Positions 12,925 to 58,600 of a DNA stretch of 64,000 bases are shown one piece after another. The notes beneath the pieces were generated by a model. That model did not search any database and was not told the DNA's origin. It saw only the letters and a program-made list of their open reading frames with translations. This stretch comes from Pseudeuparius sepicola (Eukaryota > Arthropoda > Insecta > Coleoptera > Anthribidae): positions 54,814,560 through 54,878,559 of the forward strand of contig OY987301.1 in the NCBI GenBank assembly GCA_963920635.1, given 5' to 3'. Made by a program: the position numbers and the translations under genes. Numbering within the stretch: the stretch's first letter is position 1; each line of letters starts with the position of its first letter.

Positions 12925-12925
<1 letters not shown>
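11978..12925 (-). mobile_element. Dong/R4-like retrotransposon end, 5'-truncated copy B
   Basis: About 0.95 kb between TTA-repeat runs. It holds the C-terminal coding part (12906-12097) and a short 3' UTR ending GGCTAAGTCGATA followed by (TAA)n on the minus strand. Elements of the Dong type are known to insert into TAA repeats, which fits both copies lying in the (TAA)n tail of the Jockey-like element. Confidence 0.75.
12097..12906 (-). CDS. Restriction-like endonuclease domain of a Dong/R4-type retrotransposon (C-terminal fragment)
   Basis: The 269-residue open frame covers the end of an R2/R4-type polyprotein. It has a C..C.....H...C zinc-knuckle-like segment (CRYGCPTSETIQHITGGC, about residues 68-85). 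The PD-(D/E)xK-type nuclease core follows, with HNRPDLIIVDK, IDVAIP and the downstream K..KY, then a conserved ATGVIPKSL stretch (in this copy STTGVIPKSL). This nuclease nicks the target for priming of reverse transcription. The reverse transcriptase is missing because the copy is 5'-truncated; the ATG used at 12906 is only the first in the fragment, not the real start. Confidence 0.8.
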   Translation of the reverse strand: MGKPLHGRHPNEVNQEHVDKLASNYWLTSGRMFPETEGFLLAIQDHVIPTRNYLKFIVGDASVVDDRCRYGCPTSETIQHITGGCQMFASTEYKERHDSVAKILHQELAEKLLLVQAERVPYYSYTPEPVLENSNYKMYWDRTVLTDQRVAHNRPDLIIVDKISRKTTLIDVAIPNNNNLRVKQVEKIAKYRDLEERIRRQWEMENVKTIPIIVSTTGVIPKSLLRNIKELGLTDSLYRSMQKAVLLATARTVRKFMGNAGTSHNINVT

Positions 12926-12966
<41 letters not shown>

Positions 12967-13193
12967 AGTTGTGCTATTTCAAGCTTAACTTTTCTTCTAG
13001 GCGTTTCAATTTCGCCAGTTCCGCCTCATGCACCTGGCTATAATTATTTTCTTCTTGTGAAGGGTATTTTTACATTATCATTATTTTATATTAACCATTT
13101 TTTTAGCGCTGGTTAATGACTTTTAAGTTGGGTTGTACGGGGGTAGCTCAGTTAATATTTAATTTTAGCTCGTTAGAGATGTGTATTGCTTTT

Positions 13194-16100: not shown

Positions 16101-16350
16101 GGGCGTCAAGCGTTTATCAAAACAAACCTGTCTATAGGTTTTGACGTCATTGGTAACGTCTTAATTTGGGTGTTCTTCTGGTGCCCAGTCGCGCTTCACA
16201 AATTCCTATTAAATCATAATTTTTCCCCTTAATGAATTCCCTAAGATCTTGTATTTTATTATATACACTGTTCGCATTCCAATTTAATATTTTGATATTA
16301 GTTTTGTGTTCGTTTTCGGGTTTAAATACCATATTTCTCTGCGATATCAC
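13194..16350 (-). pseudogene. Jockey-like ORF2: AP-type endonuclease and reverse transcriptase, broken
   Basis: ORF2 begins inside the ORF1 stop region (ATG at about 16332) with LNWNANSVYNK, the endonuclease N-terminus. A MITE (15718-16153) interrupts it, and the frame is continuous across the MITE if one TAACGT copy is counted. Endonuclease motifs continue with FGDFNARHYEWG near 15460 and GTIDFALA near 15330. The RT follows, with YRPISLTSNIGKLLE, DAQKAYDTIW, LPQGSVLAPTLYNIYI and FADDT at about 13870. Two further breaks are seen: one near 14855 and one in a (TA)n tract at 13914-13926 that carries one extra TA unit. The C-terminal part (13853-13194) is intact and lacks RNase H, as in the Jockey clade. 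Confidence 0.85.
15718..16153. mobile_element. 436-bp MITE with 24-bp perfect TIRs
   Basis: The termini are perfect 24-bp inverted repeats starting CCAATGACGTCAAAACC (15718-15741 and 16130-16153). The flanks are TAACGT on both sides (15712-15717, 16154-16159). The Jockey ORF2 frame is restored on removal of the MITE and one TAACGT. It has no coding capacity. The parent superfamily is not clear; a 6-bp duplication is unusual for the common MITE families. Confidence 0.85.
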
Positions 16351-17716
16351 ACATTATTCTAAGCTTCTCAATCTCGTCCAGGTCATTCGTTACTTTTTGT
16401 CTAATTTCCTGTACCATTCGCAGCATGGTCGTCAGGTTTAATTCTTCATTCAGTTTGCTTATTTGTTTAAATGTGTTAATAGTTTCGATCGCTCCTTCCC
16501 TGCTCTTTTGCGTAGCTGTCTTAATTGCATCTCTTTCCTGTTCGAGGTTTTTTACTAGTTCTTGGTCGTTTGCTTCTTCCATTTTAGTTTTCTCTTCTTG
16601 ATTTGTATTATTTGTTTTGTTGGCATACGACACTCCTTCTTCACGTAAGGCCGGTTTTTCTATGACTCTTGGCTTGTTTACTTGTCTCTTGTTCTTATTT
16701 TGATTTCTTTCGGCAAATTCTAGGTGTTTTATATATATTTCGCATTTCGAATAATTTGCTGTATGATTTCCGCTACAGTTCGCGCACTTTAGCTTTTCCT
16801 GGGGTTCATTTTTCCCCAGTTTACAGTCTGCGGTCCAGTGGCCTTCAGCACACTTTACGCATCTCGGGTTTCTCCGACATTGCATTGCCCCGTGACCAAA
16901 TTCTTGGCAGCGAAAGCATTGTGTTATTTTTCTTAATTTTATGTACTCTTCCCATCGGATTCTTGCATGCTGAACGCCTTTGATTCTCTTAACTTTATTA
17001 AGGTCTGTCCCTTGTTTGAAATATACTAGGTATGAATACGGTTTTTGTGTTCTTCCCCTCATCGTGATTATTTTTATGACTTCAAGGCTTTCTTCCGTCT
17101 CTAGGTCTTCCTTAATATTATTTTCATCCATCCCCGGGAGGGCCTTCATGACCATTCTTATTGGTTTTTCGTCTCTAGGTGTATAGCTAAAAAATTCCAG
17201 TTTATTGTGTTCCAAAATTTGCATTATTTTTATTCTAACAGCTTCCGTGTCACTGAAAAATTTTATTCTATTTCTCTGATAACCTATTTGGAAGGTTTTC
17301 CCCACTACCTTTTGTATACCTTGTACTGCATTATTAATGTCTAATGGTGAAGTAACTATAATAGGTGGAGGTTTTTTGTTTTCCCTTAAAGTCCCCTGTT
17401 CTACCTTATCATCCTTTTTTGCATTATTTTTATTTTCAGTATATACCCCTATATTTATCTCAGTTGTTTCCATATTTAAATTTTGGTTAGGATTAAAATT
17501 TTTATCATCTTTATCTACCCCCGTTTTATATTTTTTAACAACCATCTTACCCTTGTCAGGATCTTTATGTTTTTCCGGGTCCTTCTCTCCTTCTGCACCC
17601 TCGCTTTCTGATGTTGTTGCTGCTGGCCTCTTTCCAGTTTTTTTAACCATTGTTTTCTCAGTGTCCATTTCACTGTCAATTAAAATTTTCAGTCTTTGTC
17701 TATTATTTACACTCAT
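16322..17716 (-). CDS. Jockey-like ORF1, gag-like protein with CCHC zinc knuckles
   Basis: An intact 464-residue frame starting at ATG 17716. The N-terminal ~120 residues are charged and lysine-rich. An RNA-recognition-like central part follows (about 130-260). Then come CCHC knuckles: CFRCQEFGHGAMQC (about residue 267), CVKCAEGHWTADC (about 286) and CANCSGNHTANYSKC (about 312). The last ~100 residues are predicted helical and charged, possibly a coiled coil. Such proteins bind element RNA and form ribonucleoprotein particles. The stop overlaps the ORF2 start region (16332), the usual arrangement for reinitiation. Confidence 0.85.
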   Translation of the reverse strand: MSVNNRQRLKILIDSEMDTEKTMVKKTGKRPAATTSESEGAEGEKDPEKHKDPDKGKMVVKKYKTGVDKDDKNFNPNQNLNMETTEINIGVYTENKNNAKKDDKVEQGTLRENKKPPPIIVTSPLDINNAVQGIQKVVGKTFQIGYQRNRIKFFSDTEAVRIKIMQILEHNKLEFFSYTPRDEKPIRMVMKALPGMDENNIKEDLETEESLEVIKIITMRGRTQKPYSYLVYFKQGTDLNKVKRIKGVQHARIRWEEYIKLRKITQCFRCQEFGHGAMQCRRNPRCVKCAEGHWTADCKLGKNEPQEKLKCANCSGNHTANYSKCEIYIKHLEFAERNQNKNKRQVNKPRVIEKPALREEGVSYANKTNNTNQEEKTKMEEANDQELVKNLEQERDAIKTATQKSREGAIETINTFKQISKLNEELNLTTMLRMVQEIRQKVTNDLDEIEKLRIMCDIAEKYGI

Positions 17717-21122: not shown

Positions 21123-23171
21123 TTAAGTACAATCACACACAAAATACAACTCTTTCCTTATTTCTTTAGGTGTATGTTTTATGACATCTAGTTTTATTCT
21201 TATTTTGTAGTTTAGATCTATATTCGAGTTCTCTAGTTCTTCCTCTAGCCAATAGTTAGATACAAACAAGGATTCCAGATTTTCAAATTGTAAAATGTAT
21301 CGAACTTTATTTCTATGTAGTATGTCTTTAATTCCCACAATAACTAGTTGTGTCCCTTCCCCTAACTCTTCGATTCTTCGACATTGACCAACTTTAACTT
21401 TTCCTTTCATTTCCAACATTGTAATATTATTAAAATGTTCGACTCCTTCCTGTGTGAAGGGGCTATCCTCTAAATTTTTCCATATATTAGATACAAATTC
21501 TAGTTTTTCTATTTTTGGAAATGAGTTACCATTGTAACTTGCCATTCCGTTAGTTTTAATTACACAAATCACTGCTTCTCTTGGCAAACAGAATAAGTCC
21601 ATGTCGTCATCGTAAGGGATTATAATGTATCCCTCCTTCTTAAGATCTTCTTTAGCCTTGTAAGCATTTAGAAAAACATTTTTATGGTACCCCTTAACGT
21701 AATACACACTTTTTGACCCCTCTTTTTCCCCCAAAACCCCAACATAGGGAAATTTCCCTTTGCTATTAACGGTAAATGCAGTAACCTTATATTCCCCACT
21801 GGTGTCTAGGTTTTTCCAACGAGACCCAAAATAAGGTTCAAGTTATTCTCTCAACTTTGCTATTTCCTGCTCAAACTCCAGCTAATGTTGGTGTTGGTTT
21901 TTAATCGCTTCTGTCTCTGCCAAAAATTCGATTCTTCTTCGTTTTAAATTTATTTCGTCCAATTCCAGCTTTCGCTTCTTAGCAGACAACACACTGATTC
22001 GAAATAAAGGTTTTATCTCTTTGACTGGATAAGAGCAGAGTTTATTCGTTAGATTGGTTCTTTTCCTTAATATTTTGGGTAGTAAATTAGTCGTATTCAC
22101 GAGGCCAAATTCTTCGAGGTGAATCTCCTTGGGGATGGTCGAGAAAAGGGTTGTCGATTTAGAGAAATACGTCTCACCACTCTTAATGTAACACTTGTGG
22201 TTAAAACTTACAATATCCTTATTCTCTTTATCCTCCACAACTTCTACGTAATTAATCGGTAAAAAATTGAAACTAAATGCAGAAATGACATATGAAATTA
22301 TTTTACTGCGAGACTTTGCATCGCTGGGTAAATTTATTTGCACTCCAGTTAATTTTTTGGTGTTACTGTTTCCCCAATAAACATATTGTAAAAGGTTCTT
22401 ATATACAAGGCAACAGCTGTTTTGTAAAGTGTCGCTCAATTTTTTCCACATGTTAGGTATAGAAACAGAATATATAGGGGCTTTATGGAAGTACTTTTTA
22501 CTGGAGTTTAGTAGAAACAGACAATCTTCTATCGGTTCAAATGTTTGCAGGATACAGTTATTTTCGATGTTGTAATTATAAATCGTAGCCTCCAATCTTG
22601 TTATACCATGTGTCTTTGCCAAATTGGAAGAAAATGTTTCCCTTAAGCGTGAATCGGGGCAAGCAATAAAATCGACAATATGGTTACCCAGCTGCTTGCT
22701 AACACCAGGGCTGGTCATTTGGCAAATAAACTTATTGTAAATTTTAACTCTTACATCAGTATTTACCATTGTTAAACAATCTATACCAACAGTTTTATCG
22801 TTATCTACAATTACGTTGCAATTCATCTTGTATTCTCCTTGGTAGCAGAAGTTGTGATTTGTAATCAAAAAGTCACTCATCTCTCTCTTGTTAAAAACAC
22901 CAGCAAAGTCTTGCGTAATGTCTAAATCCAGAAGATAGTAATGTTCCTTCCTAAGCTGGTTCAACGGGCGCGGTAGTTCTTCTAGTATGGTCTCAATCGG
23001 GGCGTCGGCCAACTCCACTTTGTACGGTATCCCAACAGGATCTTTTTATTTTTGCCTATTATTCTCCAAGTCTCTTTGTCCAACCACTTGCATAATTTTT
23101 TTCGACATATCACTTCCACTATTCAGTAGGTAAGGCAGCTTTGCTTTTACTCCATGTTTACCAGAAACCAA
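21123..23171 (-). pseudogene. Element X protein, Rep-like core, coiled coil and C-terminal domain (X1 copy)
   Basis: It continues from 38586 after Polinton-2. The longest open piece (23018-21882, 378 codons) has YYLLDLDITQDFAGVF (about residues 27-42), DVRVKIYNKFICQ (88-100) and THGITRLEATIY (136-147). The order Asp-x-Asp, then (K/R)xYNK, then RxE resembles replication initiators of the Rep_trans/phage gene-II type; this is inference from pattern. A Lys/Arg/Glu-rich coiled coil (KRRRIEFLAETEAIKNQ) leads into a TAG at 21882-21884 and, in the same frame, a further ~230-residue domain (to 21123) with no known motif. A second stop (TAA, about 21840) is private to X1. A short break near 23045 (poly-T) separates the first ~40 codons. 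Confidence 0.65.
23166..23171. repeat. Target site duplication AACCAA of Polinton-2 (left)
   Basis: Repeated at 38586-38591. Copy X2 has a single AACCAA (read on the minus strand) at the equivalent place, so the insertion point is confirmed. Confidence 0.92.
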
Positions 23172-26088: not shown

Positions 26089-29000
26089 TTAACCTATTTG
26101 GGAATAGTGACCCCAAGGGAGTGTTTCATAACCATGTAAAATATATCTTTTATCGTCATGAGGACTTAACGCGATCTTCGATTGTTTTATAGTGTAAACG
26201 GTGTGTTTCTCTGACCGAATCAAATTCTGATTAACTGTTTTTTCAATATTCTTCTCCAGACACTGTACATAATCATCAAAAGTGATTTTAGCTTTAACGA
26301 CTGATTTCTTAATCCCCTTAGCCTTCTTTGTAACTCCACCTTGTAACATGATCTCGGACATTTCATCCTCAGTAAATCCATTTTCCTGCAGTTTGCGTAT
26401 TTTCATATCTTCACTCTCATTAACTTTAAATGTGTACATTTTTGATCGTAGACCCACAAAATCAGTCATAATTCGTCCATTGTTTTCATCCCTCATCATT
26501 CCCAAAACTTTTTTGTTTACCAGAGGTATACCATATATGTTATCAGGTGAATAATCGCTGGTGTCAAAATATTTATGACAGTCTTGACGCATAACTTCGT
26601 AAATGTCGATGTTTTGAATTTCATAAATTAATGAGTCAGTGTCAGTATATGAAACTGTGCAATTGTTACCAAACTGAGGTTGCATGTACCCATAGTGAAA
26701 ATCATAGATAGTTGTTTTTGCTAGATCCAAAATACTCATACCAACGTAAATTGGCTTATTCATGAACACTTCAGATTTGTTTAATTCAATTGCTGCGAGG
26801 TTTTCACCGAAAATCATAGCAGACTTGAATTCAGGTTTGACGATAAGTGCCTCCGCACCATTCGACCTTCCCACTTGTTAACCAGTTTTATCACCGAATG
26901 TTTGTGGACATTTTCCATCGTTTTCACGAAGACTGCGTTATTCAGAAGTTTGTATAGATCTTTCTCAAAAGCGCTCGTCGCCTGGGCACGAAGTCTAGTA
27001 TTCAGGTCTATGTAGCTTTTCAACCATGCACTTTGTTTAAATTTAAGTACACGATGTATTTTCTTCAGGATAATACCGTTTGCTAAAACTTGTTTAAGTG
27101 TCCTGTAGTGAATCACGTACTTTTCTTTATTATGGAGGGTAGCCATTAATTTTTTCTCTCTTTTAGTCCCTTGTATATGTTGTGGGCAGAAAGGTAAATC
27201 TTTATGTTTATCATGGAGTTTCCCAGGGTACTCTAGATCAACTTCTAGAAAATACCCCATGTCAGAATTAACAGTTAAGTTTTCAATATTCAACCCCTGA
27301 ATCTCCCTATCATCTAACCATTTAAATCCAGCAAAAGGAAGTGGTTGTGACATAGCCCAACCATACTGATTGTTGATGTCAAAGTAAGTTAAATAGCTCA
27401 CAGGTTTCTGTGGATCATAATTGGACATGTATTTATTATTAGCCGTGGCGCGTCGTTTGGAACACTGACTGAGTCCACCACGTATTCCTTTCTCCACAAA
27501 CATTACTTGATAAATATCCGTTATTAATTCTAACTCCACTTGTGTGTACTTTAACATCGAATCCCATGTGTATCCAGGTAATGTGTAGTAGTGAGCGGGA
27601 TCTAGTTTGTGAGTTCTCATGCAGCTAGCTCTAAATGCTTCGAATACATCGGCTAGAAGCAATCTATCCGTTTTCAAATATAGGTCAGCATAATCATTTA
27701 ATGTTTTGCATTCACATTCGCTCCACACTTTCTGTGCGTGAGCATACTCTTTTTCATATATCGATCTTTCCTCCAGTTTGTTATAAAAACAGTCCTTAGT
27801 AGGTAGCTGACTGTGGTTTAATTTCTCCATACAATCCATAAAATCATATGGGAAAACACCTTTTCTTGTTAGAAGTTTGAAACGTGATTCGGGGAGTTCG
27901 GAGAAGTTGTCCCGGAGGATTGGGTACTCCGAAAGATTGGATGCCAAAGAATCTAATCCTGCCGACATAAATCGGAAACTATCTATAAAACGAAATTTCA
28001 CTAAATTATCAGGTATATGTTTGGTGAAAGATATATATTTTTCTTTATTGATAGGAAGCAACTCTACTCATCCCTCATCCTTAGCTATGCTCTTGATCAC
28101 GAAATGTGCATCATAATCTGACAGATTGTGGAAGACTACAGGTACAACGTGACTATCTTGGAAATTTATATTACAATCATCATGCGCAGCACCTCGGAAC
28201 TTTCCAGTTAAATGGTTATGGTCTCTGACTTTCTTTCCCGTGATGGGTTTCTCACAAATATGACACAATTTTGCATTGTTAAAGCTCTTCTTCTCATCCG
28301 CTGTTAGTCTATCCATCGGTAGAGGGCATAGAAAAACTGTCTCTAGATCCTCAGCCACTCCTCCTAGTTCTTTAGAAAACCATTCCATGCAATCTAACCC
28401 AGTGTAAGATCTGTAGGATGACAAGCTGTCATCATAACTACATTTAACATAATAGCCAACGCTGCAAGGCACATGCTTTTGGTATTTATTATTGTCGTTT
28501 GTTGCCCTGAGGAGACTTTCTATATCGGCATAAATTGTAAAGGGTACCATTTCCTTATTTTTGTAATTTTTAAATTTGAGGAATTTGCGATCTTGGATTG
28601 ACTAACTTTGCAATCGTTCATGTGTTTACAATCTTCATAATGCATTGTTAGCTTTTCCTCTGAGTTAAAGTAATGAAGGCATCGATCACAGAAGAATTTT
28701 TGCCCATTACATTTACTAAGCTGTGATGAAATTAGACGAGAGAGGTCTTTGATCCAGCAAAAATGATAACGAACGGTGGAATTATCATTACTTTCTTCTT
28801 CCTCTTCATAATAAGCATTTTGCACCATTAGAATATTGACATGTTTGTATACCTTATTTTTAGTCATGTAAATGGGCAAGGTGTGGAGCTTGTTTCGATG
28901 CTTTCGAAGAATGTAAACGTTTATTGACATATCATTAAGTTTTTCGAATTTTGGGGTCTGTTTAATGGTCATTGGGAAACATATTCCTTTCAAATTCAAA

Positions 29001-38992: not shown

Positions 38993-39098
38993 GCACAGGA
39001 TTGCGCAATATTTAATTAAATTGTGTTAGGTGGAAGTAGAAGGAGTGGGGGTCGTTGAAATCGCTTCGTTGAAAGTAACGTAAGGTGATTTCTTACCT
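38993..39098 (-). repeat. X1 TIR, promoter side
   Basis: Inverted copy of 20925-21030. The TATA box of the X gene lies immediately inside it (about 38972-38982 on the minus strand). Confidence 0.85.
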
Positions 39099-39833
39099 AT
39101 ATGATTGACGTTGAGTTTCTTGCAAAAGAGGATACTCGTGAAACTCCCAGCTTCTGAACGGGACTTCCAACTCCACATCTTTTTCGAGATACTTTAACAA
39201 TTGTAGACGTTCAAAGTCAGAGACAGTTATGTGGGGCACACGCCACAAAAGTTTGTTTAGTTTTACTTTGACAACATCCTGATCGTTGGATTGTATAGCA
39301 TTGATATCATTGTTGCTTCTGACCAGAACTAGCTCTTGACGTAAATTGAGAATGATCTTCTGAAAATCTTCTGCAAACCCAAGCAACACCTTGAGTGGTA
39401 TGCAAAAACTGAAATTACCATCTTTGTCAACTAGAACATCATCAGTTTCAGATGTCCAGCCTGCGTTTTGGAGTCGTTTGCAGTCACCAGGTGTAAGAGA
39501 ACAGTAGCCTTTCATGGTTGTCGTGATACCTGGATTGCGGACTCTATCAATTACTGTACCTGCCATTTCGAATCTGATTTCATCGAAAAGAAACGCCATA
39601 CCATTATTAACAAACTTAGCTGCTGATGAGGTCCCATCTGATTTTGTTAGCTTTCCTTCTATGTACAAGACACTGTCACCAGGTAAAGTATAGATGTCTT
39701 GCTGTTGAATGGGTATACGGATTTCATCGTTGTTATTTAAACTGGTGGCTGAGTAAGGCTGGTGTGTATGTAACTCCACATTTATAATGGAATTATCAAA
39801 CTCAGCTTTTTCTCTAACATTTAATACATCCAT
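39093..39833 (-). pseudogene. Polinton-1 major capsid protein (double jelly-roll), 3' part lost
   Basis: The frame starts at ATG 39833 (MDVLNVREKAEFDNSI). Recognisable Polinton/adintovirus major-capsid features are the N-terminal strand region, LPGDSVLYIEGKL, FLFDEIRFEMAG.VIDRVRN and PLKVLLGFAEDFQKIILN. About 243 codons are present, less than half the usual length. The gene is cut where the X1 terminus starts (39098), so the last residues and the stop come from X1. The missing C-terminal half is not found on the far side of X1. It would have formed the capsid shell. Confidence 0.85.
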
Positions 39834-41886: not shown

Positions 41887-41935
41887 TCTAGCAAGGGACC
41901 ACGACTTATATATAAATAGGTGGTCCCTTGCTAGA
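41887..41935. promoter_or_regulatory. Perfect palindromic divergent promoter between PLA2-like gene and ATPase
   Basis: The arms TCTAGCAAGGGACCAC (41887-41902) and GTGGTCCCTTGCTAGA (41920-41935) are perfect inverted repeats around a 17-bp centre with TATATATA. The PLA2-like gene starts 11 bp to the left (ATG 41876) and the ATPase 11 bp to the right (ATG 41946). The symmetry implies one TATA region serving both directions with identical leaders. Confidence 0.8.
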
Positions 41936-41945
41936 ACTTTCAACA

Positions 41946-42638
41946 ATGAAGATCGTCGATGCTCAAGGTGGTAGTCTATGCATTGAAAACTATGACGTCA
42001 TATCTAAGATCAATCCGCAGAGGCATGGACTTTTATTACCATCAACCATCCGTTGTATTGTGTGCGGACCATCCAATTGTGGAAAGACTAACCTCATAAT
42101 AGAGCTGTTAATACATCCAAATGGTTTGAGATTCCAAAATGTGTATCTATACTCAAAGTCTCTCTATCAGCCAAAATATGAGTTTTTGCAGAAAGTGCTC
42201 TTGCCATTAAAAGGAGTTGGTCTCTTTTTATATAAAGACAGCGAAAACGTTGTTCTACCAACCGAAGCCAAACCTAATTCGGTGATAATATTTGATGATG
42301 TCGCCTGTGAAAAGCAGGACGTCATCCGAGAATATTTTTCTATGGGTCGTCACAGAGCGGTTGATTGTCTCTATCTCTGTCAGACTTTTGCGAGAATTCC
42401 GAAGCATCTGATCAGAGACAATGCGAACATGTTGATTCTATTCAAACAAGATGAAATGAATCTCAAGCACGTATACTCAGATCATGTCAATACGGATATG
42501 TCATTTGAAAAATTCAAAGAAATGTGTGGTCTGTGTTGGAGGGACAAGTATGGTTTCTTGGTGATAGACAAGGACAGAGATATTGAACAAGGTCGATATC
42601 GCCTGGGGTTCGATAAGTATATATACCCGATGCAGTAA
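41946..42638 (+). CDS. Genome-packaging ATPase (FtsK/HerA-type) of Polinton-1
   Basis: ATG 41946 is chosen because it follows the promoter; the TTG 18 bases upstream is only an open extension. The protein is about 230 residues, normal for the family. Walker A is CIVCGPSNCGKTNLI near residue 35-49 and Walker B is NSVIIFDDVACEKQD near 112-126. CLYLCQTFARIPKHLIRDNAN is the conserved segment after it. It is predicted to drive DNA into capsids. The frame is intact. A TATA-like GTATATATACC in its last codons (42617-42627) probably serves the next gene. Confidence 0.9.
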   Translation: MKIVDAQGGSLCIENYDVISKINPQRHGLLLPSTIRCIVCGPSNCGKTNLIIELLIHPNGLRFQNVYLYSKSLYQPKYEFLQKVLLPLKGVGLFLYKDSENVVLPTEAKPNSVIIFDDVACEKQDVIREYFSMGRHRAVDCLYLCQTFARIPKHLIRDNANMLILFKQDEMNLKHVYSDHVNTDMSFEKFKEMCGLCWRDKYGFLVIDKDRDIEQGRYRLGFDKYIYPMQ

Positions 42639-43979: not shown

Positions 43980-46321
43980 AAACGGTTCTAATGTTTACAG
44001 TGTTCCACAACTTTTTGGAAATAAAATTAAACCAACCAACGAACGGTTCGGACTGTGGTTGCTGACAGAAAACTTATGTGACAACAACCTGGCTACCGAT
44101 GTTGGAAATATTAATTATACTGCCGAAGAAGAGCTGCTGATGGGAGATGATTCCAATCTTGTGCCAATAACGAAACCGTTTTGCGATAATATAATGCTTG
44201 TGAAATTGTGTGGGTTAGAAGACTGTGCGGGAAAGGATAAAGGGCGCTTTATCGTTAAGAAAGAAGTATGTGGTGCATTTAATCTTTACCTAAGGGGTAA
44301 GTTTTCCAACTTGGTTTCTGGTAAACATGGAGTAAAAGCAAAGCTGCCTTACCTACTGAATAGTGGAAGTGATATGTCGAAAAAAATTATGCAAGTGGTT
44401 GGACAAAGAGACTTGGAGAATATTAGGCAAAAATACAAAGATCCTGTTGGGATACCGTACAAAGTGGAGTTGGCCGACGCCCCGATTGAGACCATACTAG
44501 AAGAACTACCGCTCCTGTTGAACCAGCTTAGGAAGGAACATTACTATCTTCTGGATTTAGACATTACGCAAGACTTTGCTGGTGTTTTTAACAAGAGAGA
44601 GATGAGTGACTTTTTGATTACAAATCACAACTTCTGCTACCAAGGAGAATACAAGATGAATTGCAACGTAATTGTAGATAACGATAGAACTGTTCGTATA
44701 GATTGTTTAACATGGGTAAATACTAATGTAAGAGTTAAAATTTACAATAAGTTTATTTGCCAATGACCAGCCCTGGTGTTAACAAGCAGCTGGGTAACCA
44801 TATTGTCGATTTTATTGCTTGCCCCGATTCACGCTTAAGGGAAACATTTTCTTCCAATTTGGCAAAGACACATGGTATAACAAGATTGGAGGCTACGATT
44901 TATAATTACAACATCGAAAATAACTGTGTCCTGCAAACATTTCAACCGATAGAAGATTGTCTGTTACTACTAAACTCCAGTAAAAAGTACTTCCATAAAG
45001 CCCCTATATATTCTGTTTCTACACTTTACAAAACAGCTGTTGCCTTGTATATAAGAACCTTTTACAATATGTTTATTGGGGAAACAGTAACACCAAAAAC
45101 TTAATTGGAGTGCAAATAAATTTACCCAGCGATGCAAAGTCTCGCAGTAAAATAATTTCATATGTCATTTCTGCATTTAGTTTCAATTTTTTACCGATTA
45201 ATTACGTAGAAGTTGTGGAGGATAAAGAGAATAAGGATACTGTAAGTTTTAACCACAAGTCTTACATTAAGAGTGCTGAGACGTATTTCTCTAAATCGAC
45301 AACCCTTTTCTCGACCATCCCCAAGGAGATTCACCTCGAAGAATTTGGCCTCGTGAATACGACTAATTTACTACCCCAAATATTAAGGAAAAGAACCAAT
45401 CTAACGAATAAACTCTGCTCTTATCCAGTCAAAGAGATAAAACCTTTATCTCGAATCAGTGTGTTGTCTGCTAAGAAGCGAAAGCTGGAATTGGACGAAA
45501 TAAATTTAAAACGAAGAAGAATCGAATTTTTGGCAGAGACAGAAGCGATTAAAAACCAACACCAACATTAGCTTTAGTTTGAGCAGGAAATAGCAAAGTT
45601 GAGAGAACAACTTGAACCTTATTTTGGGTCTCGTTGGAAAAACCTAGACACCAGTGGGGAATATAAGGTTACTGCATTTACCGTTAATAGCAAAGGGAAA
45701 TTTCCCTATGTTGGGGTTTTGGGGGAAAAAGAGGGGTCAAAAAGTGTGTATTACGTTAAGGGGTACCATAAAAATGTTTTTCTAAATGCTTACAAGGCTA
45801 AAGAAGATCTTAAGAAGGAGGGATACATTATAATCCCTTACGATGACGACATGGACTTATTCTGTTTGCCAAGAGAAGCAGTGATTTGTGTAATTAAAAC
45901 TAACGGAATGGCAAGTTACAATGGTAACTCATTTCCAAAAATAGAAAAACTAGAATTTGTATCTAATATATGGAAAAATTTAGAGGATAGCCCCTTCACA
46001 CAGGAAAGAGTCGAACATTTTAATAATATTACAATGTTGGAAATAAAAGGAAAAGTTAAAGTTGGTCAATGTCGAAGAATCTAAGAGTTAGGGGAAGGGA
46101 CACAACTAGTTATTGTGAGAATTAAAGACATACTACATAGAAATAAAGTTCGATACATTTTACAATTTGAAAATCTGGAATCCTTGTTTGTATCTAACTA
46201 TTGGCTAGAGGAAGAACTCGAGAACTCGAATATAGATCTAAACTACAAAATAAGAATAAAACTAGATGTCATAAAACATACACCTAATAGAAATAAGGAA
46301 AGAGTTGTATTTTGTGTGTGA
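43980..46321 (+). pseudogene. Element X protein, Rep-like (X2 copy), broken
   Basis: Aligning X2 to X1 shows one ancestral gene of about 780 codons. X2 has lost the start codon (8-9 bp missing near 43990). It then runs open through SVPQLFGNKIKPTNERFG, MGDDSNLVPITKPF and YYLLDLDITQDFAGVF to KIYNKFICQ. One base is missing at 44763, and about 28 bp are missing near 45030 relative to X1. The coiled coil KRRRIEFLAETEAIKNQ precedes the TAG at 45569-45571 shared with X1, and a private TAG follows. The C-terminal domain (45599-46321) has a private stop near 46083. X1 and X2 differ by few substitutions, so the family was recently active. The Rep assignment is inference from motif order. Confidence 0.65.
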
Positions 46322-48869: not shown

Positions 48870-49925
48870 ATGCAACATATCCATGCTCTTGAGAACAATC
48901 AAGATAAACTGTTAACCACAGTAAATCATTTCGTTGTAGAACAAACCAATGAACGTTATAACAAATTCATAAACTCAATAAATAGCAACACTCAAAAAAA
49001 AGATAGAACATTTTCACAATATCACTACTCAAATACAAACTCTATTTACTTTACAAACAGAAATACACAATCTAAACAATCTCAATAAATTATTGCAAAA
49101 ACTTCTCAAAACTACCAACTTAGCTCAAATCAATCAACCAAACATAGAAATATTCAATTTAAATGAAATAAGAAAAATCGAAAATGAATTACTTACTATA
49201 TACGATGAAAAACAATTGATAATATCAAAAATACATCCGTTCGAAGTAATTGAGCGTTCAAAAATCTCGATATGTGTTACACAAACTCAATAACTCAATT
49301 TGTAATGATATTAAAAATCCCTATCCTAAGTCTTTCGATTCACACCCTTTTCCATATTTATCCATAAAGAAGATATAATTCTACTACCCCCTGCAAGATT
49401 CTACGGAACAATGGTACAAAGACTACCCCAAGAATAGGATAAATAAACATCTGTAAAAACCCGATCAACACACATTGCCAATTAGAAGAAATCAAACAAT
49501 GCAATACCGCAATAGTAAAAAATGCAGACTCTGCAAATGCAACTAGAAAACAAAGCAATATTAGTTGGAACCAACAAACCGACAATAATTATAGAAGAAA
49601 CCTGCCCAGACTTTACGCATCAAGAAGAAATAAGCAGCAGTGCAATAATATCGTCAAATTGCCAACTAAAAATAAATGGTATAATCTATTCATCTGCCGG
49701 AAAGAACATAGAGATCCATACACCACTCCTACAACACTAATCGCTACCGCCACAACATATAATTCAACTGAAAAATATGGAACAAACAGAAGACCTGCAC
49801 AAAATTCTGCCCATTACCCCGATTAACCTAATGAAGAAAACATCTTATGTACATATTTCATTGTCTATTGTAACCTTAGTTTTAATAATTATAACTTGTA
49901 TTCTATCTGTACCCCAGAGCCAAAC
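48870..49925 (+). pseudogene. Env-like membrane glycoprotein remnant
   Basis: The pieces lie in order. They include a helical region with HIHALENNQDKLLTTVNHFV and INQPNIEIFNLNEIRKIENEL, a Cys-containing ectodomain stretch near 49560-49680 (IIIEETCPDFTHQ, then SNCQLKING), and a final hydrophobic segment at about 49853-49912 (SLSIVTLVLIIITCIL) typical of a C-terminal transmembrane anchor. Multiple stops and shifts break it. The assignment rests on position after integrase, the anchor and the Cys pattern. It appears inactive. Confidence 0.6.
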
Positions 49926-49928
49926 TAT

Positions 49929-50319
49929 TGTCGTGAAAATTACAATCCCCCTGTAGATGAGATTTTTAATTAGGACAAACATTAATAAATTTATTCTACT
50001 GACAAAACAATATTGGTGGCCTCGCGTATCGAGAGCACGAATTGGCTCGACACTTGGGTGCTAGTGGCGTTCGGGGAAAGGTGGCCTGCCTGGTGGGAAG
50101 CACCATGCAGGGGTTGTTCCCCACATCAAGTGTAAAGAGGGTCCAAGTCAAGGTTTAAGTTACTCTTCAATTTCAAATTACAATTGTAAGTATTTCTTTT
50201 ATTTTTATTATTCTTTTTTATACTTTTATTTTCTATTTTTTTATAATAAATTATATTTGTTTTTCTGGAGTTGTCTTACTTGCCAAGGTTATGCATCCCC
50301 CCCCCCCCCCAACACGACA
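49929..50319 (+). repeat. Left LTR
   Basis: It pairs with 56898-57281. It contains a C-tract of about 14 (half that in the right LTR) near its end and a T/A-rich block with AATAAA-like sequence at about 50245, a likely polyadenylation region. Confidence 0.92.
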
Positions 50320-50321
50320 AA

Positions 50322-50339
50322 TGGTGGAGGCGCCTTGTC
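50322..50339 (+). promoter_or_regulatory. Primer binding site of the Gypsy element
   Basis: TGGTGGAGGCGCCTTGTC begins two bases after the LTR end. It would pair with a tRNA 3' end of the form GGCGCCTCCACCA. The tRNA identity was not determined. Confidence 0.55.
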
Positions 50340-50552
50340 TTTCTCGGAGTAAATTCTCCAAAATTTACTAGTTTCAGTTTCTCGCAAAAGGCAAAGCAGT
50401 TTAGTTGTGCTAGGCAACGGAATGTTGCCGACTAGGGAATCTAGTTAACTGCACTGTGGTCGTGTAATGCATAATTTTGGAAGTAAGAATTTTATTTTTG
50501 GTTTTTAGGGGCTATTTTTAATTAATTTTGAACGTTTATATTTCTCGCCATA

Positions 50553-51590
50553 ATGTCGGCTCCTACGATATCCCAAGCACAATCGTGCCTAGTTCCTGTT
50601 TTTCCCCCTTACGTTGCTCCTCCTATGTTCCATCCGTGTAAGACTATTTATCCCACTGATTTTATTAAGGAATTTAATAAAATTGCGGACTTTAATGGCT
50701 GGCATAATGGACATAAACTGACGTATTTTGGTGATTTTTTGGAAGGGTTTGCATATATTTGGTATGAAAAGTATAAGGGAAAGGAGTATAATTTTTCTAA
50801 GACATGGACTGACGTAGTTGTAGCATTTTTAGAGGAATTTGAGGATACCGAGTTGAGAAAAAAGTTGCTTGAGAAACTACAAAATTTAAAGCAAGACAAA
50901 TCGATGTTAGAGTATTATTTTGAACTTGTATATTTATACAATGATTACGATTCAACGATGAATGTAAAAGAATTTACAAAATTTTTTGAAAATGGGTTAA
51001 ACGAAGTTTCCAAATATCATTTATACTGGTTAACAAACGCAAAAGGGACGGAAATTACGTTGCAAGATTTAAAAAAATTTTCAAAGGTGATAGACAAGGC
51101 TCCTCAAATTCCACGTCAGTTGTTTACGCAGGATAGTGTGATCGTCTGTAATAGTTATGCCGCATTCGATGATCATTCAGAAATATTTACTGTCCAAGGG
51201 TTTATAAATGGAATAGTTTCGACAGTTATCATAGATACAGGGTCTAAAGAAAATATAGTGTCTACAGATTTCTCCAAAATAGTGATTTAAATAGCTTAAA
51301 CAGAGTTGCAACACATGTTGTAGGTGCTGGTGGGGGTAGACTCCTCGTTTTAGGAAGAAAAACGATTTCGCTAAATTTTAACAATTTTTTTACATCCTGT
51401 GAAGCTTTAGTCGTAAATAATTTTTCAGCTAATATTATTTTGGGAATGAAATTTTTAGTTAGTCATAAAGCAGTTATATATACCCATGAAGGAAAAATTA
51501 CTCTTAAAACAAATAATGATTCCACAACAATTTTTACAAATTCGAATTCCGAAAACAGCGAAATTCATGTTTTACAATTTCTTTAGAAAA
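50553..51590 (+). pseudogene. Gag and aspartic protease of the Gypsy element, one frameshift
   Basis: ATG 50553 opens a 245-codon frame. Residues about 30-150 form a gag capsid-like domain (FIKEFNKIADFNGW, then FGDFLEGFAYIWYEKY and LQNLKQDKSMLEYYFELVYL). The protease active site VIIDTGSKENIVS is near residue 228. A shift in the A4 run near 51276 ends the frame; the alternative frame continues the protease (VVGAGGGRLLVLGRK, ANIILGMKFL) to about 51585. Gag packages the RNA and the protease matures the polyprotein. Unusually, no CCHC knuckle precedes the protease. Confidence 0.8.
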
Positions 51591-51599
51591 TAAGGTTCC

Positions 51600-53541
51600 A
51601 AATGATTATTCTCCCAAAAGATTGCATCTCAACCGTAATAATTTTTTTAATAATAGAAATTACTTTCACAGCAGACATTATTTTAGGCCAAGGCCAAGTT
51701 TTAATTCATATAAACATAAACAATGGGCAAGTAGGCCACTGGATCATCGACGTAATAATTATTGTCGCAGTCGGCAAAACGCACGGGGTTCAAATTACAA
51801 AACTGTCACAGTTACCTTGAAAAACAAAATGCACAATTTTAATAACATGAACTACTCACGACAGAATATCAATAACAATAACAATTCTTTAAATTTCGAG
51901 GTCATGGTGTCTAAAATTACAGATTTTATTATTAACAAAAATGATGAAATAAATCGATGTTTCCAAAGCCAAACAAATTGCAAAGTACCTTCAACTGAAA
52001 CTCCATGCAGTACACAATCTTATCAATTTTTTCCTGATAGTTGTACAGATTTTAGAGGGAAGAATTTAAAAGTCAAATTAGCGGAATGTTTTGATGATTT
52101 ATTTCTCGTAGGTCAAGGGTATTCTTTGGCACATTGTGTAGCGGCTGATTTAGAAATGTCTAAAGGGATAGCACTAAAATTTAAAGAAAAATTTGGACGT
52201 ATTGATGAACTTAAAAGACAAAAGCAAGAAAAAGGTGGCTTAGCCGTACTGAAAGATCAATCGCGATTTATTTATTACCTAGTGACAAAAAGTTATTCAC
52301 GTGAAAAACCAACATATGAAAATTTGTGGGAATCGTTAAGAAAGCTTAAGGAACATGTTGTAAAATATAAAGTAAAAAAGTTAGCAATTCCAAGATTAGG
52401 GTGTGGTTTGGACCACCTTGAGTGGGATATAGTGGAAAATATTATTTCTTGTATTTTTAAAGACACAAACATTGAAATTTTAGTCTGTAAATTTAATCCA
52501 AATAAGGGCAAGAAACAAGAACATAATAAAATAAAGGCAAGTAAAAATATTAGTGAAACAGTTTTTTTAATAAGGGAACATTCACATCAAAAGGCAAAAG
52601 ATAAAGTCGAAATTAAACTTTCAATAAAAGAAGGCACTAGATTAGGAGCTTATGAAATCAAAAATGTATCTGTAAAAATTCTAGGGGAGTCACCACAGAA
52701 GCACGCACTAAAGCCAAATGAACATTATTTAATTAAAAGAGGTTTATTAATTAAGTCAAGAAATTTAATAACTCGGGGAAATGGTAAGATAGTACAGGTC
52801 AAGAATATGTCAAACATGCCTCAGGTATTACATAAGGGCGCCACAATTGCCTTTTTGCAAGAGGAAAATACTTTTATCGAGGAAAAAATTTATACCATAG
52901 GGGCGCAAGAGAGAAATGATCAAATTAAGTTAGAAAAAACTTATAAATTAGGAGCAAATTTAACAAAGAGAGAAGAAATTCAAGTCACACACTTAATAAA
53001 TTCTTATAGGGACGTTTTTGCCACAGAAGCTAGCGAGATGGGTTCAACAAATATAGTAAAGCATAAAATAGAATTAACGGAACATAGACCATTTAAAAGT
53101 AAACCATATAAAGTTTCGCAAAAAGAAAGAGAATTGATTGACACGCAAATTGAGGAAATGTTGTCTACAAATGTCATTCGTCCATCACAGTCACCATTTT
53201 CTAGCCCAATAGTTTTAGTAAAAAAGAAGGGAGAAAGTGAAAAAAAGAGATTTTGCATCGATTATAGAAAACAAAATGAGATAACCAAGAAATCAAATTA
53301 TCCCCTTCCTAATATAGAAGAGATTTTAACGTATTTTGGAAAGTCAAAATATTTTTCGACATTAGATTTATTCAGCGGTTATTGGCAAGTTGAAATGGAA
53401 GAATCTTCTAAGGAATATACAGCGTTTGGCACGGCTTATATGAATTTAATAAACTCCCATTCGGACTGTGTAATGCTCCTTCAACTTTTTCTGATCTTGC
53501 GGACAGAGTATTCAGAGGACTTAAATGGTCCAGTTTATTGA
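51600..53541 (+). pseudogene. Gypsy pol, first part: basic region, TARG1-like macrodomain, linker, RT N-terminal half
   Basis: Counting from TTG 51622 as 1, residues 1-60 are Arg/Asn/His-rich, a nucleic-acid-binding-like tail. Residues about 145-295 form a macrodomain of the OARD1/TARG1 type: LFLVGQGYSLAHCVAADLEM, KGIALKFKEKFG, RFIYYLVTKSYSREKPTYEN and AIPRLGCGLDHLEW. Lys223 (VTK) and Asp264 (GLD) match in kind and spacing (41 residues) the catalytic pair of human TARG1, which removes ADP-ribose from acidic residues. A beta-rich linker follows. The RT then starts (about 460 onward; FCIDYRKQNEIT, LDLFSGYWQVEM with the first catalytic Asp). A one-base loss near 53430 ends the frame before motif YLDD. 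Confidence 0.85.
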
Positions 53542-55696
53542 TTTATCTGGACGACATTATTGTGTTTTCTGAAACTTTTGAAGAGCATTTGACAAAATTA
53601 GAAGAAGTATTTGAGCGTCTAAGAAAAGCAGGGCTTACGTTGAAGCCAACCAAGTGCAATTTTGCCTCACCGGAAGTTAAAGTATTGGGTCACATTGTAA
53701 TCGGGGGTGTATTAGCGCCAGATCCAGAAAAATTGATGGCAATAGAAAATTTTCCAAAGCCCAAAAGCAAACGTAATGTGCAGAGTTTTTTGGGACTATG
53801 CAATGATTATAGGAAATTTATTAATAACTTCTCTAGAATAGCCAGGCCGTTGTACGAGATTACAAAAAATGACCCTGGATTTAAGTGGGGATGGGAACAA
53901 GACGTAGCATTTCAGCAATTGAAACAAAAATTAACAGAGTTCTAGTGCATTTTAATCCAAACGTGGGATGCGAATTGAGATCGGATGCATGCAAAGATGG
54001 GCTTGGTGTAATATTGTTGCAAGAAAGTAACGGGGAAATGCATCCAATAGCTTACGGAAGTAGAACATTGATAAAGGCCGAGAAAAACTATACTATCTCA
54101 GAGCTGGAAGCCCTAGGAATTATATTTGGATTAACTTATTTTAGGCATTTTATCTATGGAAAGCCTGTAAAGATAAAAACGGATCATCATGCCCTATGTT
54201 TTTTGAAAAAATCAGAAAATGCAGCAGGAAGACTTGCGAGATGGCTAATAAAATTAAATGAATTCGATTATGAAATAATTTACAAATCGGGAGCAAGACA
54301 TAAAGATGTAGATTGTTTATCGCGAAATGCAGTATTACCTCCACGAGAATGCGAAGAAGAGGAAAGTTTTGACATCCCCACATTTGCACTATCCAGTGAC
54401 AAGATGGCCGAGGAACAACAGAGAGATCCCAAAGTTAAAAAATTAATTGAAGCCGTGCGTGACCCAAATTCAGAAGGAATTGATATAGCCTTACGTAGAA
54501 GAGCAAAAAATTTTATACTAATAGATAATGTGTATAAGAAGAATCCATCAGTATCAGGGAACGAAGACTTGTTGGTAATACCAAGGCATTTGGTTCAAGA
54601 AATATTATTTTCAAATCACAATGAACCGTTGGCAGGACATTTAGGTATATCAAAAACTACTCAAAAACTTAAGGATAGGTATTTTTGGGATGGTCTACCA
54701 AAAGATGTAGAAAAATATGTTAAGGGTTGTCGGGACTGTCAAGCACAAAGGGGAATGACAAATAGGAAACCAACAGGGTTATTGCAACCAATTTCAGTGG
54801 GGTTGCCGTTTCAAAAGGTAGGAATAGATTTATTAGGGCCATTTAAAAAGTCCTCAAATAATAACACTTTTATAGTTGTAGCCACAGATTATGCTACTCG
54901 ATATGTCGAAATGGAAGCAATTCCTAATGGTAAGGCCGATACAGTTGCCAATTTTATTTTTAAAAATGTTATTAGAAACCATGGGTGTCCAAGAGAAATG
55001 TTGTCAGATAGAGGTCAAGTGTTTAGGTCAGAATTTTTGAATGAGTTGTTAAGAGTTATGGGTATAATTAAACAACAGACGACGTCATATCATCCGCAAT
55101 GTAATGGGGCGACAGAAAGAATGAATGCCACTATTGCGGCCATGCTTAGTAAATATACGTCTGAAAAACAAGATGACTGGGATCATTTCGTGCCACATGC
55201 GCAATTGGCATATAATACTGCTCCACAAGGTACGACAGGGTTGAGTCCATTCTTTTTAGTTTATGCTAGGCATCCTGTCCTCCCCACAGATGCCAGTTTA
55301 AATGAACAGGTGTTAGTATTCGAAAATATAAAAAAGATTAGGGACAGGGCATTGGCAGCAAGAAATTTAGCTGTAGAAAACATTGAAAAACAGCAACATT
55401 ACGACAAAAGGCGTTACGATGGCAACCATAGGCACGTGGAATTTAAACAGGGTGATAAAGTCAAAGTATTTACCCCCGTTAGAAAAATTGGCAGGTCAGA
55501 GAAATTGTTGCTGAAGTATTTTGGGCCTTACGAAATTATCCGTAAGTTAGGGCCAGTTACTTACGAGGTAAGAATGGGACTGACTAAAAATGCCAAGACA
55601 GATGTGGAGCAGGATTCTGGACTACCACGATCCCTGGAGCCCCGAGCCGGAAATTGCCGAGCCTTAAATTTCTTCCTCTTAGGGCATAGGTTGTAA
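53430..55696 (+). pseudogene. Gypsy pol, second part: RT C-terminal half, RNase H, integrase
   Basis: After the shift the frame gives LPFGLCNAPSTFSDLADRVF and IYLDDIIVFS (catalytic YLDD at about 53541). A second shift near 53940 leads to RNase H (LRSDACKDGLGVIL, ISELEALGIIFG, TDHHALCFL). The integrase then has an HHCC finger (HNEPLAGHLGISKTT to CRDCQAQRG), first Asp in VGIDLLGPF, second in LSDRGQVF and Glu in GATERMNAT, and a C-terminal GPY-like module (KYFGPYEIIRKLGPVTYEV). The last frame (53885-55696) is open over 600 codons. All enzymatic motifs are preserved; only the joins are broken. Confidence 0.88.
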
Positions 55697-56081
55697 TATA
55701 GTATAATAAGATTATTTTATTTATTTTTAGGTGGCCACCATATCTATAATTACAGCATAAGCAATTAAAAATAGTACAATAGATAGCTGTTAGATGTAGA
55801 AGATAAGGATTTAATATGACAAATCAGTGGATACATGACGATAATATGGAATGGAGCGAAAGGACTAGCAGAGAAGAAAAAAAGATAAATATCAAGTTTT
55901 CTCGAACGTAATATGAAAATTATTTTAGGTGGACAATTAGTATTGTACAATGGAAATTTACTATCAAAGGGTTGAAATAATTAATGACTCCTATTAAAAC
56001 TGCAGGTTATGTGTATATGAGAGAATGGATCTAAGAATGAATGTAAAGTCCTAGGCCTAGGCATTAATAAGAGTGATTTAA
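55697..56081 (+). other. Post-pol region of the Gypsy element
   Basis: Short frames only. No env signature, splice site or repeat was recognised here, and the same holds for 56220-56880. Confidence 0.5.
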
Positions 56082-56219
56082 ATGAATTGTCGACAAAAAA
56101 TGAAACGAGAAAAAAATTTCTTTAAATTAAACTGGTACCAGATAATAGTTATATGTATTTTAGTAGTAGCCGTGTCATGTATACCCACATATGTCATAGT
56201 AATTAAGAAACCCTCGTAA
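56082..56219 (+). CDS. Candidate 45-residue single-pass membrane peptide between pol and right LTR
   Basis: ATG 56082 opens MNCRQKMKREKNFFKLNWYQ, followed by IIVICILVVAVSCIPTYVIV, a clear hydrophobic helix, and a basic end (KKPS) before TAA. It lies where env would be in an env-bearing Gypsy element. It could be a relic of an env anchor, a small accessory protein or chance. No family is recognised. Confidence 0.35.
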   Translation: MNCRQKMKREKNFFKLNWYQIIVICILVVAVSCIPTYVIVIKKPS

Positions 56220-56881
56220 CCATAATGAATATTTTTTATTGTTTTTATTTCCTTACTTAAAAAACTGTATACCCTATTTAGTTGATTTTATGTATTTATA
56301 AAAAATTGTTTTTTCAATATCTTAGTAATGTCGTCACAAAGAGGCATACACGGGGATTGACAGAGGAAACACGGACACAAAATGGTTATGGTGGAGAAGC
56401 TGCGTTGTACTAAGGTTCTCACGTATACCAACGTGAGTAAATGGTTGGTACATAAATGGGGTCAATGATGACAAAATGGAAATGGGATCCCTAAAGAAGG
56501 CCATGGCATAGATGCAGTGGGAAACGCCAAAACCCCTGACTAAGCCGGCACTGCAAGATGGACCCGTATCCTGAGCTGTTACCAGAGCTGGTAAGGTCAA
56601 GGAGAATCACGAATAGAGAAGAGGTTTGAAGAAAAGAAGACAAAAAGACAAGTAACCTGCATGTGTCCAATGTTTTCCAAGTCTCCCATGTGTATCTGCT
56701 CTCAAAGAAATTTTGTTATGTTTAATTATTGTAAAAGCTAAATAATTTTTGTAAGTTTCTTTTCGCTTTCCGATTTTTTCTGTTAAGTATATTTTGCCAT
56801 TATTTTGTCAATATTTCAATTCAATTCCATTGTAAAAACCCAAGTGACGAGTCAAGCTTACTCGCTCGGGGCGAGCGATTC

Positions 56882-56897
56882 CGGAGGGGGGGAGTAT
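56882..56897 (+). promoter_or_regulatory. Polypurine tract before the right LTR
   Basis: GGAGGGGGGGAG lies directly upstream of the right LTR, the expected plus-strand primer position. Confidence 0.7.
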
Positions 56898-57281
56898 TGT
56901 CGTGAAAATTACAATCCCCCTGTAGATGAGATTTTTAATTAGGACAAACATTAATAAAATTATTCTGCTGACAAAACAATATTGGTGGCCTCGCGTATCG
57001 AGAGCACGAATTGGCTCGACACTTGGGTGCTAGTGGTGTTCGGGGAAAGGTGGCCTGCCTGGTGGGAAGCACCATGCAGGGGTTGTTCCCCACATCAAGT
57101 GTAAAGAGGGTCCAAGTCAAGGTTTAAGTTACTCTTCAATTTCAAATTACAATTGTAAGTATTTCTTTTATTTTTATTATTCTTTTTTATACTTTTATTT
57201 TCAATTTTTTTATAATAAATTATATTTGTTTTTCTGGAGTTGTCTTACTTGCCAAGGTTATGCATCCCCCCCAACACGACA
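56898..57281 (+). repeat. Right LTR
   Basis: It differs from the left LTR at a handful of sites (for example near 56955-56970, 57036 and 57203) and in C-tract length. Confidence 0.92.
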
Positions 57282-58600
57282 CTATGTTAAGTCAATTTTT
57301 GCTGAAAATGTGTTTTATATGTTATGTCCATCAGAATTACCTGCTTTTTATGTTGGTATTTATAGCGTCCACCTATCTGTATTAATAACAAAGTTAGATC
57401 TTTATGAATAATGTTAAGTCACTGTTTGCCTGCGAGTCACACTATGTTAAGGGACCTTGATATCATTTGCCTCATAGATGGCGCTTTTGTTTAATATGTT
57501 AAGTCCACATAACCTCATGTTCACATTGTTTTTATCGGCACGCCACGCCTCGTCGATGCGGCGCTTTATTGTGTTGTTTTTATGGTCTTTTTGAGTTAAA
57601 ATAACAAATTTCTAGCCAGATTGTCTTCAAGAATTGCTGGAATTTTTGAAATGCTGCCAAAAATTAGTAATAATTGAAATTCATTTTTTTTTTAGAAAAA
57701 ACACTGAGGTATAATTAAATAGTGATCCTCAATAGCTTAATTATATTTAGTGAAACCCTTTTTGCGCCCATAAACCTATTTAATAATTGTGGGGGATTAC
57801 ATAGTATTATGGACTTAACATATTTCGAAACTATCGAATTTAATTATTGAGTGGGACTTAATATAGTAATAATTAAAATTCATTTTTTTAGAAACAATAC
57901 TGCGGTATAATTAAATAGTGATCCTCAATAGCTTAATTATATTTAGTGAAACACTTTTTGCGTCCATAAAATTTAAAAAAATTTCACAAAAATATGAACG
58001 TCTTCAAAAGCTATTACCGTGGATTCCAAAAACCTTCTATGATTTTTACCGGAACTTGCCGCATGGTAAAGAACATTGTCATTTATTAATGACAATGTTC
58101 TTCACAATAAAAGTGAACAAAAATATATATAGTAAAGACCAGAATTAAGTGTTTTTTTAATAAAAATCTTATTTTGATAACTGTGTGCCTTTTGTTGTTG
58201 TTTGTTTTTTTTTAACTTAATATTATGTCAAGCCAATTTTGATTTTTTTCCCAAAGCCAAAGTATGTTAAGTCGTTTTGGAGAAAAACTCTATATATTTT
58301 TTTCAACAACTTCTAAACATTCCATAAAGTCGATGCGAATAACCTTGGGTTTTAAATTCAAACTTCTTACAATTTAAGTGGTTCAAGTTATGCACAACAA
58401 TACAGGAAAATATATTTTATACTCAATTATCTCAAAACTAAGTTTTTGGACTTAACATAGTTTGGCTCTAAGGTGCAGCTATTTATACTATATAATATTG
58501 TAAAGACAAACCAAAGATCACTTTTGATCAACTAAAAATTATTTACGAACCGAGGACGGTTCTCTATCTAAGGAAGGAGGAGTTATAGACCCCTCGTCAA
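57282..58600. repeat. Repeat-rich DNA with recurring TATGTTAAGTC and a ~110-bp direct repeat
   Basis: The short motif TATGTTAAGTC or its reverse recurs near 57283, 57409, 57442, 57497, 57820, 58262 and 58450. A segment with GGTATAATTAAATAGTGATC and CAATAGCTTAATTATATTTA occurs at about 57674-57776 and again at 57871-57968 (offset about 197 bp). The Gypsy element target CTAT lies in one copy of the short motif. A perfect hairpin GAACATTGTCAT/ATGACAATGTTC is at 58071-58100. No gene is supported. Confidence 0.65.

Follow-up and report, generated by a model that had tools for sequence, protein, structure and literature searches.

A TARG1-type macrodomain in the pol region of a beetle Ty3/Gypsy retrotransposon

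Introduction

Captured enzymes and macrodomains are known from several retroelements and viruses. Basta et al. 2009 (as cited in PMC4977317) described epsilon-like endogenous retroviruses of fish that contain reading frames for a macro domain or a CNPase, and Gypsy elements of orchids carry an AlkB demethylase of N6-methyladenosine that is active in vitro (PMC9289625). In some other long terminal repeat (LTR) elements, the interval between protease and reverse transcriptase (RT) is occupied by a dUTPase (PMC6431247). The alphavirus protein nsP3 is a further case of an infectious agent with a macrodomain of its own. Here, we describe a Ty3/Gypsy LTR retrotransposon of the beetle Pseudeuparius sepicola (Anthribidae) whose pol region holds a macrodomain of the class of TARG1 (terminal ADP-ribose protein glycohydrolase 1, also OARD1 or C6orf130). 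The element lies at positions 49929–57281 of the 64,000-nucleotide stretch that we analysed (the window; contig OY987301.1, 54,814,560 to 54,878,559).

How does this locus compare with the described systems? TARG1 of the host is a free-standing enzyme, whereas the domain in the window is a module of a retrotransposon polyprotein. Like the fish retroviruses, which are represented here through the citing paper, the window element combines LTRs with a captured macro domain; unlike them, it is an insect Gypsy element and not a vertebrate retrovirus. One protein from our searches (numbered P0041, as are others below) may be of the fish macro-bearing kind and serves as its stand-in: it consists of a macrodomain followed by the protease domain RVP, plus a stretch taken for CNPase by eye. 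The macrodomain thus precedes the protease in P0041 but follows it in the window, where a Pfam scan of the four main open reading frames (ORFs) revealed no CNPase family, and the two domains do not group in the careful tree described below. With the orchid elements, the window element shares a Gypsy backbone and a captured eraser (in orchids, of a nucleic-acid modification), but the orchid case concerns a plant, a separate ORF and a different chemistry (PMC9289625). The dUTPase shares the same pol interval and is an unrelated enzyme (PMC6431247). Macro domains in fish retroviruses and a captured eraser in an orchid Gypsy element are thus already known, and a macrodomain in a Gypsy element is apparently unreported: no such report was found among the matches listed in a search of open-licence literature.

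Results

A note made earlier from the window sequence had claimed a complete TARG1/OARD1-type macrodomain within a Gypsy pol, and Pfam, a profile of our own and alignment to human TARG1 all confirm it. By the limits of our profile the domain spans 52066–52536 (plus strand, as do all coding features of the element), and the core that aligns with human TARG1 spans 52081–52485. The alignment also bears out the spacing given in that note: Lys223 (52288–52290), the counterpart of the catalytic Lys84, and Asp264 (52411–52413), the counterpart of what we take to be Asp125, presumably the second residue of the catalytic pair, lie 41 residues apart, as the two do in TARG1. Lys84 of TARG1 has been termed catalytic (PMC8501950). 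The predicted structure has the macrodomain fold, and among the macrodomain classes of solved structure TARG1 is the closest to it. DarG is the next structural neighbour, and in a test for an nsP3-type domain the alphavirus macrodomains were not the closest. Both the Lys and the Asp are retained in every aligned LTR-element macrodomain (18/18). We assign the domain to the TARG1/OARD1 class, with hydrolase activity as its predicted function.

The element that carries the domain has paired LTRs, a CTAT duplication and the gag plus protease-RT-RNase H-integrase order (the protease identified by eye, the other domains by Pfam). A single unbroken frame of 639 amino acids (51622–53541; ORF list and Pfam) encodes the macrodomain, the linker and the start of RT.

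Where in pol was the domain inserted? Among the pol relatives found, P0179 is the nearest (42% over 530 columns of RNase H-integrase); a search with our own macrodomain profile revealed no macrodomain in it. Its protease aligns with that of another relative, P0040, as far as residue 128; near residue 169 begins a linker that matches the one in the window element. In P0040, the macrodomain stands between protease and linker. Because the macro-less P0179 has its linker after the protease, we read the order shared by P0040 and the window element (type A below) as one in which a macrodomain is added at the protease-linker boundary.

To find relatives of the domain, residues 140–310 of the window frame were used as query in a protein search, which returned 55 matches among 398 candidates. 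Retroelement Pfam domains are borne by 11 of the 55, all with E values of 1.7e-26 or better and all found also by our own profile; P0177 was found with P0040 as query (E 2.8e-30). Pfam scores of Macro are weak in these proteins (18–21 bits in P0014, P0022, P0037, P0040 and P0051, below the cut-off of 22; no Macro at E <= 0.01 in P0035, P0039, P0050, P0055 and P0177), and the macrodomain call therefore rests on the protein searches and our profile.

In Gypsy-type proteins, the macrodomain occupies three pol positions besides that of the window element. Type A (gag-protease-macrodomain-linker-RT) comprises the window element and P0040, an open protein of 863 amino acids that runs from gag through protease, macrodomain and linker to the segment before RT, where its sequence ends; the two are 32% identical over 174 residues of gag and over 423 alignment columns from macrodomain to pre-RT segment. 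In type B, the macrodomain lies past the integrase (P0014, P0022, P0031, P0035 and P0039, with P0050 as partial kin and the fragments P0146 and P0101 assigned by eye). Type C, with the order RNase H-macrodomain-integrase, was found in a weevil (P0037, Rhynchophorus) and an aphid (P0051, Sipha flava). Type D, macrodomain-protease-RT-RNase H-integrase, comprises P0055 and P0177, the latter an open protein of 1238 amino acids found on 55 contigs; two proteins annotated as those of the beetle Rhamnusium (P0018, P0068) share the type D flanking sequence, as assigned by eye. In P0144, an integrase zinc finger precedes the macrodomain. A CCCH finger following the macrodomain was matched by Pfam in P0014, P0022, P0031 and P0146, weakly and in all cases below the cut-off; this finger type also occurs in ZAP/PARP13 (PMC4806868).

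P0040 thus places the same domain order in a second Gypsy element, which the earlier note had proposed to look for. Together with the other retroelement macrodomains, it also rules out a one-off chimera or assembly join, either of which would have undone the claim. The same proteins bear on the possibility that a piece of host OARD1 was caught once and is carried as a passenger without function. The window copy is broken and P0179 has no macrodomain, both of which would suit a passenger; however, P0040 keeps the order and the Lys/Asp pair at 32% identity, the same domain class recurs in other pol positions, and P0177 is open and spread over 55 contigs. We consider a passenger the least probable of the readings discussed here.

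Type B raises another possibility, namely that the domain is a reader, which would bind ADP-ribose or poly(ADP-ribose) and steer the integration complex to damaged or poly(ADP-ribosyl)ated chromatin, or would bind RNA without hydrolysis. Type B macrodomains follow the integrase C-terminus, the place where chromodomains sit. Targeting by chromodomains has been described (PMC9289625), RNA oligomers are bound by TARG1 (PMC8053099), and an arbovirus nsP3 macrodomain has been proposed as a suppressor of RNA interference (PMC6638189). However, the residues needed for hydrolysis are uniformly retained, as noted above, and the window-type domain is far from the integrase, from which the protease would probably cleave it. 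A reader thus seems quite unlikely.

Viral contigs searched with the window domain and with P0177 yielded no relative. In a further search of such contigs with the macrodomain alignment, 80 of 90 encoding stretches were kept; P0177, P0014, P0051 and P0040 matched none of these 80 loci outside the macrodomain, and no such elements were seen among them.

TARG1-type macrodomains were also seen outside LTR elements. Four putative LINE (long interspersed nuclear element) ORF1-like proteins contain one (P0046, P0049, P0054 and P0019), together with a GDSL esterase (P0049 and P0054, on opposite sides of the macrodomain), a PHD-like domain (P0049 and P0019) or a zinc knuckle (P0046). The DNA ligase III-like protein P0178 has zf-PARP, ligase core, TARG1-type macrodomain and LIG3 BRCT, in that order, and three more DNA ligase proteins (P0042, P0047 and P0052) carry the macrodomain by Pfam and by eye. 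The macrodomain of VP5 of Banna virus (P0043) is likewise of TARG1 type and clusters with a caddisfly protein (Arctopsyche; 100/97 in the careful tree), perhaps a further viral capture.

We then asked where the window domain came from, which the earlier note had taken to be a captured host OARD1-like gene. Two trees were computed: a quick tree of all 92 rows, distorted by the very long row P0021_2, and a careful tree of 62 rows, to be read with caution given that 30 of the 92 had been dropped beforehand as partial, second-copy, very long or redundant (including P0050 and P0055). In the careful tree, the window domain is sister to type D (99/85), that is, to elements of another domain order. 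One group of 11 rows (98/89) unites the window domain with types B and D, P0040 (type A) and the PHD-like P0019; neither dipteran OARD1 nor the host proteins of beetles and Orthoptera belong to it. Within this group, P0040 and P0019 join without support (91/6). In the quick tree, the retroelement clade was not recovered as one and P0040 was unresolved; the window domain again grouped with type D, and also with P0011 (Diorhabda) and P0162 (supports 86–91). Comparison with host OARD1 therefore recovers a retroelement grouping in the careful tree and gives no support to direct capture from this host, a point that the quick tree leaves undecided. Because the window domain groups with retroelement macrodomains in the careful tree, its capture looks old, and it was probably passed on from another lineage of retroelements or inherited from a common ancestor, not taken straight from this host.

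Other retroelement domains fall elsewhere. The weevil type C domain P0037 is nested in beetle proteins, adjoining a protein of the weevil Anthonomus (set of three, 98/80), which suggests a second and more recent capture. P0051 of the aphid falls together with P0046, P0049 and P0054 (99/90). On the careful tree, the retroelement/host label requires five changes. In approximately unbiased (AU) tests, whose p values are nominal as the groups were named after viewing a first tree, a single clade of all 14 LTR-type domains gave p 0.030, and p 0.031 with the four LINE-like rows included. Not rejected were a clade of the 12 LTR-type rows without P0041 and P0144 (p 0.24), P0037 placed with the window's clade (p 0.36), the window domain and P0040 as sisters (p 0.096) and the two type C rows together (p 0.205). 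At least two captures are likely and four are not proven; a separate weevil capture is favoured by the tree, not forced by it. In our best reading, the domain has changed position within Gypsy elements and passed from one of their lineages to another.

The remaining features of the element are as follows. The CTAT target-site duplication was read in the flanking sequence (left copy 49925–49928, right copy 57282–57285). Comparison of the 5' LTR (49929–50319, 391 nucleotides) with the 3' LTR (56898–57281, 384 nucleotides), both on the plus strand, gave 380 matching columns, 4 substitutions and 7 gap columns, the gaps being equal to a difference in C-run length. Because LTR divergence is low, the insertion is fairly young. 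A putative primer binding site starting with TGG (50322–50334) lies 2 nucleotides past the 5' LTR, and a polypurine tract (56883–56894) adjoins the 3' LTR; both were read from the plus strand. The gag ORF (50553–51290, 245 amino acids; PF03732, E 2.7e-9, residues 62–151) extends into the protease start, with the motif IIDTG at 51228–51242, and the rest of the protease, with ILGMKFL, follows in a different, stop-terminated frame (51271–51587); both protease parts were found by eye. Downstream of the macrodomain lie the linker to RT (52537–52990), which from residue 345 onward aligns with that of P0179, the first part of RT (53218–53457; PF00078, residues 533–612) and, in a different frame, its last part (53538–53945; ORF list and Pfam). 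RNase H and integrase (H2C2, core and p58 C-terminal domain; Pfam) occupy 53885–55696, the core (rve) scoring 25.4 bits, under its Pfam cut-off of 32.6. Upstream of the macrodomain, 51622–52030 is rich in Asn, Arg and His; BLAST with the filter off aligns it with N-terminal parts of the beetle macrodomain proteins P0007 and P0013, matches of low complexity and so perhaps due to chance.

Two other elements were seen in the window. Positions 18000–46800 hold a Polinton/adintovirus-like DNA element or a nested pair, with a type B DNA polymerase (26817–28061), a double jelly-roll domain (39096–39833), an A32-type ATPase (41928–42635) and long inverted repeats of 95–99% (e.g., 21166–22432 versus 45021–46287). 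A LINE-like element lies at 12097–17716 on the minus strand, with an RT fragment (13903–14862, PF00078) and an ORF1 with zinc knuckles (16325–17716, minus strand) that was recognised by eye and has no Pfam match. Compared with this ORF1, the best match of P0046, P0049, P0054 and P0019 covered 28 residues at a zinc knuckle (E 0.008).

Discussion

What might the domain do for the element? Tentatively, we place first the reading that this Ty3/Gypsy lineage carries a TARG1-type hydrolase which removes mono-ADP-ribose from the element's own nucleic acids or proteins, and we would give it close to an even chance. A domain of Gag-Pol is produced at the same level as RT and would be taken into the particle; the TARG1-type domain would thus be packaged alongside the RNA and RT. 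Host ADP-ribosyltransferases would tag the RNA ends of the element, the ends or bases of its complementary DNA (cDNA), or acidic residues of its proteins, and the hydrolase would strip these mono-ADP-ribose tags, allowing reverse transcription and integration to proceed. The substrates of TARG1 include ADP-ribosylated acidic residues as well as DNA and RNA that bear ADP-ribose on a 5' or 3' phosphate (PMC8053099). The enzyme also strips ADP-ribose from thymidine in DNA, and Lys84 is needed to rescue DarT toxicity (PMC8501950); DarG likewise acts on DNA. We rank the element's own nucleic acids and proteins first because reverse transcription exposes substrates of the TARG1/DarG type, and the ligase III-like P0178 fits a role at strand ends.

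Alternatively, the domain could reverse ADP-ribose marks of the host, whether those left by PARP at the integration site or those that serve silencing and defence. The window holds nothing that points to a host target, and Gag-Pol, normally produced in low amount, suits action in the particle better than action throughout the cell. On the other side, TARG1 has been connected with the damage response (PMC8053099), and the fusion of a TARG1-type macrodomain to a DNA ligase III-like protein in P0178 implies use of the domain close to broken strands. Retrotransposition of LINE and Alu is inhibited by ZAP/PARP13, for which RNA binding and not ADP-ribosylation is described (PMC4806868). The earlier note had thought of PARP-dependent defence or of signalling of DNA damage where the element integrates; a target in the element itself, its RNA or cDNA, possibly fits at least as well. 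We rank a host target second, as rather unlikely, above a reader and then a passenger. All of these roles are inferred, whereas the class of the domain, its place in pol, its catalytic pair and its recurrence are observed.

Several points weigh against action on the element itself. TARG1 also acts on proteins, so that a nucleic-acid target is not required (PMC8053099). In mammals, SIRT6 mono-ADP-ribosylates KAP1, thereby silencing L1 (PMC4695847); because this modification is itself the silencing step, it favours a host target, whose marks a hydrolase could undo. A need for no more than a binding module could also explain the varied pol positions. Finally, the window copy gives no sign of present function, since its coding sequence shifts frame at least four times (within the protease, ahead of the macrodomain, inside RT and close to RNase H). 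These shifts could reflect a defective copy or assembly indels, and one could in principle be programmed.

The recurrence of the domain is broad: at least four pol places in Gypsy-type elements, before the protease in a fish-retrovirus-like protein, and in putative GDSL/PHD LINE ORF1-like proteins. That further elements bear such a domain in different places suggests a repeated need to undo host ADP-ribosylation. A wider and more tentative proposal is possible, that animal retroelements repeatedly employ TARG1-type macrodomains as an accessory module and that ADP-ribosylation of their nucleic acids or proteins by the host would be a widespread, undescribed barrier to retrotransposition, with the domain as its counter-measure. 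The protease-RT slot, where some other LTR elements have a dUTPase, may serve more generally as a place for enzymes of nucleic-acid hygiene. ADP-ribosylation of RNA and DNA is known mostly from in vitro work, and its cellular role was called unclear in 2021 (PMC8053099); a later paper describes ADP-ribosylation of telomere DNA, written by PARP1 and erased by TARG1 (PMC11102865). Retroelements that carry such an enzyme, seemingly acquired more than once, would argue on evolutionary grounds that the modification is important to reverse-transcribing elements.
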